A stretch of 64,000 nucleotides of DNA from Apus apus. Taxonomy: Eukaryota > Chordata > Aves > Apodiformes > Apodidae. The notes under the pieces were generated by a model. That model had not been told where the DNA came from. It made no database searches and was given only the letters and a program-made list of their open reading frames with translations. Shown piece by piece: positions 35,101 through 38,100 of the stretch (positions within the stretch are counted from its first letter, which is position 1; every line of letters starts with the position of its first letter). Location: contig NC_067291.1 of assembly GCF_020740795.1 (NCBI RefSeq), positions 21,234,780 to 21,298,779 on the forward strand, in the 5' to 3' direction. Made by a program: the position numbers and the translations under genes.

Positions 35101-38100
35101 GAGGATGGGGGCTTTGAGGTTTGGTTTTTGAGAACAAGGAGAGCAGTGAATCCTCACAGTTCCTAAATTCCTGGGGGTGCTGCTTCTCCCTGGGCCTGGA
35201 GTGAGACCCCAGACCCATCACCCTGATTTCCAGCCCATACTTCTGCTTGTCCCTGGAGCCACATCCCGTGTGTGCGGGGGCGGGGCCGGACTGCAGGGGG
35301 TGTTTGTGTTTCCCCGGTTCGGTTCTCCCAGCCTCACAGCTGCTGTTCTTGGCCCCCTGCAGCGGCCGCGTGGCAAAGGAGGTGATGGAGTCCAGCGCCA
35401 AGATCAAGAGGGAGCCCCCCGAGATTCACCGGTAAGAGCCCGGCAGCCCCAGCAGCGCGGGGCTCGGTACCACAGCGGTGGAGAGAAGCAGGCACCGCGC
35501 GGGGCTGTGCCTCTGACACTGTCCCTGTTCGTGTCCCCAGGGCAGGGCTGGTGCCGAGCAGGAGCTGCCCCTCCATCACCCACGGCCCCCGCCTGAGCAG
35601 CGTGCCCCGCACCCGCAGGAGAGCCGTGCACATCTCCATCATGGAAGGTACAGCACCGGGCAGCTCTCCTGCCACTGCCGGCGCTCGGGAGCTGGGGCAG
35701 CACCGCGGACCCCTGCACACACACCCCTGCACGCCCCACATCCAGCTGATTTTTGTAGCCACTGGTGCTGATGTAGGGACGCTGGGGCAGGTCCCTGATG
35801 TGTCCCCAGGGCCTTAGGGGAAGGCTTGGCAGCACAAAACCCTGCTCTTGTGGCTTGGGGCCAGTTTGGTGTCACAGTTTGGTGTCAGTAGCTGAGTGCA
35901 GGAAAGGGCAGTGGGGTGGAAGTTCCTGGTGCAGAAGAAAAGCTGAGCAATGCAGCAATGGTAATTTAGGTTAAATTAGAAATAACAGCAAAGGGGGCTG
36001 CAGCTGGGGTGGGGGCCATGTTGCGGTGGGATGCACCTGGGAAGGAGGATTGGCACAGGGCAAAATGTGTGACCAGGATGGGCTGTAGGCAGGGACAGGG
36101 TGCAGAGATGCTTCCTGTCCAAAGGGACAAGCCCCTCGGAGCAGGAAAGGGATTTATTTCCACAGAGGGAGCCCAGGGCTGACGTCTGTGCTGAGTTTTG
36201 GGGCAGGAGCTTGCCTGGCAGCTGTGGCAGTCCTGCAGACAGGGTCACCTCTGCTGCCCTGGTAAATGTGAGCACTGGCTCCTCCACCTCCCCCATGTGC
36301 CTTTAAGAGCACATTAAACAGCCTCCCAGAATAAATTACCCTGAGCTGGCACAGCCCCCTGGCACCACCCCTGCCCAGCAGCTGCTTTTCGTTGCTCTCA
36401 CTTCAGCTTGGTCCCGTGGAAGCGCGGGAGCCCAAAATAGCCCTGACCGGGGCCAGCGGCACCAGTGCCGCTTGCGTCAGCCGTGCTGGTGGGCGAGCTG
36501 CCCTTCCTGCTGCCCGCCGCCGTCCCCAGGGGCTCCTGGTGCTGCAGGCCAGCCCAGCCACCATGGTGAAGTGTCTGGTCAAGATTAAAACCAAAGTCAA
36601 CGTCCACCTGCGGCTCATCAACCACTGCTGCCGGGCCGTGCGGGTGCGGGTGCTGGCGCTGGGGCCACGGCTGCTGGGCCGGGCTCTGGGGGTTCTGCCG
36701 CTCCTCCCGGCTCTCCCCGGCCTCGGCCACGACGCTCTGCATGGCCCTGGGGATGCTCCTGTGCCAGGTAACATGGGGTCTGGGCTCTTCTTCAGCTGCA
36801 GCATCCCTGGGGGTCCCCGAGGGTCCCCATGGGGTCCCTGCGACTGCAGCCTTGGGGGGGTGTGGGATGCGGGATGCAGGGATGTGTGGCAGGGAGGAGC
36901 AGGCAGGGGTCCCCCCCTTGCTGGCTAGATGCTGGGTCATTGTTACCACAAAGCAGCTCCAGTTTTGAGGCTGGACCCAGCTTTCTCCAAATTTTCCAGC
37001 TTTTTATATCAGGCTTGTGGAGGAGGCTGAAGGCAGGAAGGTTTGGGTCTTGGGGGGGGGACCAGCACTGCCCTCACTGAGGTGAGGGGCAGGGGGAAAC
37101 CCCATCAGCTGCCCTCTGGAGGAGCTGAGCTGCTGCCTGCCCAGTGGGTGCCCACCTGTGAACATGGGGGATGTTCACAGGAGCTTTGTGACACTCCAGA
37201 CATAGCTGTTGGGGTGACAACGTGTTTACTCCTCGGCTGCGCTTGTCGCGTTAAGCCGCGCTGGATCCAGAGGCATCCAGGGAGGATTTACAAGCAGGAG
37301 GTTGCAAAACCCCTGGGAACGCGGGCAGGACACGCTCGGGCTCCTCACTTCCTCCCCCTTGGCAGTGCATGGGGCCAGGGCACCCGGTGGAACCGTGCCA
37401 TGGTGCTTTGGTGCACAGTACCTTCCCAGCAGGGGGGACGACCAGTCCCAAACCCCTTGCAGCTGGGTACGCTTCTTTCTGTGTTTTGCAGCCCATGCCC
37501 CTCTCCCCAGCCCCAGAACTGCAGATTTTTGGAGGGATGGGTGTGGAGGGGACTCCCCCGTGTCCTGTACCCAGGCTGGGCACGGAGGGCAGCCCCACTG
37601 TGAGTGAGTGTGCAGTGGGGGGGGCTGGCACCCAGCCCTTCGTGTTTTTGTGGGTGTAAAATATTTCCTTGGTAGTGAAGCGATAACAGCTGGAGCTGTT
37701 GGCAAAGCTGGTGTGACCTGCAGTCTTTGAGCAGGCTGCTCTGCAGCTCCCACCAGCCCTTGCATCCAGGGCCTGAGGTGGGCGAGCTCAGCCCCTCATG
37801 GCAAGCAGGGGAATCCTTGCCCGGGGCTCCTGCAGCAGGGCTGGCCGTGCTGTGTGCGCAGGGCTCTGGTTAGCTGGGACCCTGCTGTGGCTCTTCGGGG
37901 TGCAGGGCTCTGGCCAGGAGGTAAATCATAGCATCACAGCCCGGTTTGGGTGGGCAGGGACCTTAAAGGCCATCCAGTCCCACCCCCTGCCATGGGCAGG
38001 GACATCTCCCACTAGACCAGGTTTTGCCAAGCCCCGATCCATAAGGATAAATCTTAAGGATTGCCCAAGGGCTGCAGCAGTCTTGGCTGTTTCCAGCGGT

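Follow-up and report, generated by a model that had tools for sequence, protein, structure and literature searches.

Domain-lacking isoforms can arise when transcripts begin at a first exon further downstream, so that the N-terminal domain of a protein is exchanged and the C-terminal part is kept. The paralogs FRMD3 and FRMD5 separated at about the time of the early vertebrate genome duplications. In the portions of the literature on the two genes that were examined, both are treated as FERM proteins, and a FERM-less form is described for neither. For human FRMD3, the part of the source consulted gives 7 splice variants of a gene with 21 exons (PMC4696171). A splice event in FRMD5 has been traced to fish, the details not being given in the text available (PMC7561204); any of these variants, or this event, may correspond to the alternative first exon described here. 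Three FRMD3 isoforms have been quantified, although they are not described at that place in the paper (PMC4706705). For the mouse Frmd5 allele tm1a/tm1b, lethality was unexpectedly lost, and the passage seen discusses readthrough, or else reinitiation downstream, as the cause (PMC11522132). Neither MVKCLVKI nor a second peptide string of 11 residues occurs in the main text of the papers searched. A short isoform may already be annotated in RefSeq, Ensembl or UniProt.

The locus analysed here resembles such isoforms. A sequence-only reading of the window (the entire 64-kb stretch of DNA under analysis) had proposed that FRMD5 contains an alternative coding first exon giving rise to a FERM-less protein anchored by a transmembrane segment. 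What strongly supports this structural claim is, first, that FRMD3 has a matching exon in the corresponding intron and splice phase and, second, that the reading frame is under constraint. Judging from these comparisons, positions 36563-36767 are very probably the coding part of an old, protein-coding alternative first exon that predates the FRMD3/FRMD5 split.

The last intron of FRMD5 and the candidate exon

The FRMD5 gene model was obtained by tblastn, with a human FRMD5 protein as the probe. Exons matching probe residues 32-570 occupy 23.0-39.2 kb of the plus strand. The penultimate exon ends at 35647 in phase 1, which puts the alternative exon into the final intron. The relevant features are as follows.

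35541..35647, plus strand: penultimate exon of full-length FRMD5, a tblastn match with boundaries read from the sequence, ending in phase 1
35648-38629, plus strand: last FRMD5 intron, opened by the penultimate exon
36400..36562, plus strand: presumed 5' UTR/promoter region of the short form (CpG observed/expected ratio 0.57; putative role)
36563..36767, plus strand: coding part of the probable alternative first exon (68 codons plus 1 base, donor CAG/GTAACA)
38630..39204, plus strand: coding part and stop of the last FRMD5 exon (linker, transmembrane segment, conserved 48-residue tail)

Downstream of the alternative exon, and ahead of the last one, the intron carries an interspersed repeat (37925-38041, plus strand) that resembles a CR1 tail. 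The best 40 of 4330 candidates for this repeat were scored, and 40/40 match at E <= 0.001, one of them being the repeat itself. Within the last exon, a donor-like GTG/GTAAGC occurs at 39181 (plus strand), seven codons ahead of the stop, and could give FRMD5 an alternative C-terminus, provided that another exon follows. Elsewhere in the window, the open reading frames 3225-3632 and 27924-28427 start with the same peptide on opposite strands; they have 139 bp in common at 94% identity and are therefore probably repeat-derived.

The ATG at 36563 (plus strand) lies in the perfect Kozak context gccaccATGG, as the sequence-only reading had it, and is the sole occurrence of GCCRCCATGG on either strand of the window. 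The frame that it opens runs for 205 nt and ends at 36767, at CAG/GTAACA. In-silico joining of 36767 to 38630 preserves the phase and reads through the last exon to a product of 259 aa, in agreement with the phase proposed for the final exon. The count of G or C in the third base (30/34 initial codons) matches that given before. A third-position bias of this strength was found in 2/577 ATG-started open 34-codon windows on both strands, the exon being one and a minus-strand stretch at 23552, which has no known meaning, being the other; across all open windows, 14/48415 pass the same test, and coding bias alone was therefore rejected as proof. Two antisense open reading frames (133 and 183 aa) span the exon, so an open frame by itself proves little. 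The frame starting with MVKC remains open past the donor to 36928, with a stop at 36926-36928.

The donor after 36767 was placed correctly in the earlier reading, but is ordinary rather than strong: it scores 7.08 bits with a position weight matrix, lacks G at +5, and is only moderate. This score is reached or exceeded by 105/3263 plus-strand GTs in the window (1.6 per kb). The donor is, nevertheless, the top one among 12 GTs scoring above zero between 36563 and 36930, and the best GT near each of the 9 probed exon ends scored 3.70-10.11 bits, with the pick at 30008 probably being a false donor. The CpG-rich patch that had been noted upstream is likewise enriched over the median of 300-bp windows (0.18), but only modestly: CpG observed/expected is 0.61 with a GC content of 0.70 across 36400-36767, and 0.57 in the upstream part alone, against a 95th percentile of 0.67. 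A strong CpG island lies at 52501-53900 (observed/expected up to 1.14, GC up to 0.86) and presumably serves one neighbouring gene, or a pair of them, as promoter. Taken alone, the frame, codon bias, donor and CpG patch would leave the case undecided; the observation rises above chance because a matching exon exists in FRMD3.

The matching exon in FRMD3 and constraint on its frame

Apart from itself, the FRMD5 last exon has a single match in the genome at E <= 0.01. This match lies on contig C36 (40% identity over 178 residues), the window being on contig C11, and belongs to a gene that we take, from its neighbouring exons, to be FRMD3 (protein 4.1O). Thus, at E <= 0.01, a last exon of this type is confined to FRMD5 and FRMD3 in this genome. 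A search of about 50 kb around the C36 match with the 69-aa peptide of the alternative exon returned one strong match (51% identity over 43 aa, E = 4.7e-12). Among ungapped 34-residue matches in the FRMD3 region, the best has 20/34 identities and the next best 9/34. The FRMD3 penultimate exon was read from its resemblance to human FRMD3; its phase-1 end at C36:41110017 places the FRMD3 alternative exon in the last intron, too, near its middle. Its ATG, at G000:C36:41117233, has a strong context, with A at -3 and G at +4, and the FRMD3 last exon starts after TTTTTTTCAG at C36:41124438, in a phase equal to that of the alternative donor.

The two exons are alike in that they agree at 20/34 initial residues, lie on the strand of their own gene in its last intron, combine a phase-1 donor with a phase-1 acceptor, and lead to a product ending in a transmembrane segment and 48 residues. 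They differ in length, with 42 codons plus 1 base and the donor CTG/GTAAAT in FRMD3 as opposed to 68 plus 1 in FRMD5, codons 35-68 of which have no FRMD3 counterpart. They also differ in composition: the FRMD3 exon and its 300 bp upstream are AT-rich (GC 0.39) and show no CpG enrichment (observed/expected 0.26), which excludes chance by composition as the source of the match. In reciprocal whole-genome searches (1.1 Gb), the two exons are each other's only significant match among the best candidates scored (E = 1.2e-7 and 1.4e-7; E > 2 for the other matches among these candidates). Given this matching exon in the same place, the FRMD5 exon is very probably real and old. A second DNA match, on contig C4 (74%, about 90 bases), was rejected, with no link to FRMD5 seen by eye in 2000/3090 bases. 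Relatives of the peptide were also sought, as vertebrate contamination, in prokaryote and viral contigs, and no candidate was confirmed.

Selection was assessed on one sequence pair, FRMD5 and FRMD3 of one genome, over the first 34 codons. Here, 20 residues are identical (59%), 8 of those with identical codons, and mismatches at codon positions 1/2/3 number 12/6/20. The proportion of synonymous differences is 0.755 per site, which is saturated and agrees with an old FRMD3/FRMD5 split, compared with 0.25 for nonsynonymous differences (Fisher p = 2e-5, from rounded counts). Nucleotide identity is 69% in the first 51 bases and 57% in the next 51, as opposed to 22-32% in five flanking bins. On this codon comparison, the amino acid sequence of codons 1-34 is evidently under constraint. 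The similarity starts exactly at the ATG, which argues for initiation at this ATG and against an exon whose coding part reaches further upstream. The identity of the conserved N-terminal 34 residues (59%) exceeds that of the last exon (40%, 178 aa) and falls within the 58-75% observed in clean matches between FERM-region exons of bird FRMD3 and human FRMD5. The constraint on the segment is thus comparable to that on the less conserved FERM exons.

Upstream of the ATG, identity between FRMD5 and FRMD3 is at the chance level, and a shared promoter was not seen in this sequence. An internal promoter would still be the simplest reading for the short form. CAGCTG E-boxes occur at 36163-36562 (plus strand) and C36:41116833-41117232, and the FRMD3 upstream stretch also contains a MEF2-like site. 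In counts of 11 motifs upstream of both ATGs, CAGCTG exceeded the shuffled sequences, the shuffles being crude and palindromes being counted twice. These sites give a weak hint of tissue-specific use of the alternative starts.

Predicted short proteins and competing readings

The short forms spliced in silico comprise 259 aa for FRMD5 and 240 aa for FRMD3, and both consist of a basic segment, a linker, one hydrophobic segment and then 48 residues. The first 34 residues carry a net charge of +8 in FRMD5 and +7 in FRMD3, with Cys4 and Cys22 common to both, so that the 259-residue product with a basic N-terminus is as the sequence-only reading predicted. The FRMD5 form contains the last exon in its correct frame (acceptor 38630). 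Its 19-residue hydropathy exceeds 1.6 in one run of windows, with a maximum of 3.34 at residues 193-211, and it is predicted to be a single-pass membrane protein with one hydrophobic segment of membrane-spanning length. Under the positive-inside rule, basic residues lie on the cytosolic side of such segments; the FRMD5 segment has basic residues before it and acidic ones after it, which would put the N-terminus in the cytosol. The short form has no FERM domain, and its new 69 aa match no Pfam family; the last exon has a sub-threshold Pfam match to TMEM191C only. A search of the PDB with the new peptide found no relative. A single-sequence structure model of these residues shows a helix from 2 to 42, but its confidence is low (mean pLDDT 64.9) and it carries no weight here.

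We therefore propose, with high confidence in the explanation as a whole, that an old alternative exon gives FRMD5 a FERM-less, membrane-anchored form of about 259 aa, the N-terminal segment of which has a job of its own. Transcription would start internally, in the last FRMD5 intron, yielding an mRNA with its ATG in the alternative exon, and this exon, given its donor and phase, would be spliced straight to the last exon. The predicted product lacks the FERM domain and has a basic N-terminus, a linker, one hydrophobic membrane segment and the conserved 48-residue tail; FRMD3 appears to encode the same design. The transmembrane segment and tail would place the short form where full-length FRMD5 sits, and the N-terminal segment would most likely serve to bind acidic lipid, or else a partner, on the cytosolic side of the membrane. 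That this segment has its own job is inferred from its conservation, which is higher than that of the last exon.

The alternative that survives best accepts the short form as real, but mainly as a competitor that blocks the tail-dependent assembly of full-length FRMD5 or FRMD3, the N-terminus being a mere start. The short and full-length forms do have the transmembrane segment and tail in common, the FERM domain is absent from the former, and paper titles point to reported FERM partners of FRMD5, among them integrin beta5 and ROCK1. However, a mere start has no need of first 34 residues that are better conserved than the last exon, and we regard this reading as rather unlikely. Because the N-terminus is conserved, we prefer a separate role of the short form to simple competition, although both may hold.

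That the frame encodes a separate small protein, ending in the intron at the stop beyond the donor and not joined to the FRMD5 tail, is very improbable: the frame is indeed open that far, but the similarity between the paralogs stops before the donors, and each donor is in phase with the last exon of its own gene. We consider it extremely improbable that the segment is a poison exon, whose inclusion inside the long mRNA would shift the reading frame and lead to decay, with the MVKC frame incidental. Candidate acceptors do exist upstream (CAG at 36406, 36529 and 36547), and the long frame soon hits a stop if the exon begins at 36530 or 36548, but a start at 36407 gives no stop within the 60 residues read, no acceptor sequence is conserved with FRMD3, and what is conserved is the MVKC frame from the ATG on, with its synonymous sites saturated. 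Finally, a G+C-rich stretch that by luck is open, well started and followed by an in-phase donor has a negligible probability, for although open frames (antisense ones included) and donors of such a score are common in the window and the only equally biased ATG window, at 23552, has no known meaning, this reading is contradicted by the codon comparison and by the whole-genome searches, in which the sole significant match among the candidates scored is the FRMD3 exon, in the same intron and phase and in AT-rich surroundings that leave composition no role.

Implications and comparison with known isoforms

In its broadest form, the preferred reading of an old alternative exon would give both FRMD5 and FRMD3 an internal promoter and, from it, a second membrane protein that lacks the FERM domain. 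This protein would go back to a common ancestor that preceded the vertebrate genome duplications, would combine a conserved basic motif at its N-terminus with a separate function, and would persist in Frmd5 knockouts in which early exons alone are deleted. We lean slightly towards this extended version. If both genes make a conserved FERM-less form, the protein detected with 3' probes and tail antibodies, or thought to lie behind an expression or GWAS signal, can be the wrong one, and N-terminal tags and early-exon deletions would miss the short form. Knockout and tagging designs would be touched accordingly (compare the part of PMC13086079 consulted). A small, precisely delimited peptide can now be tested for lipid or partner binding.

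The short form has the same last exon as full-length FRMD5, with its linker, transmembrane segment and tail, but all that the exons up to 35647 encode, the FERM domain included, gives way to the new N-terminus of 68 codons. It resembles domain-lacking isoforms in general in that a downstream first exon swaps out the N-terminal domain. It differs from them in that the replacing N-terminus of FRMD5 is conserved between two paralogs and that the remainder is a membrane anchor with a tail; its presence in two paralogs, together with what it would mean for knockout and tagging designs, makes this alternative-first-exon isoform the more interesting.
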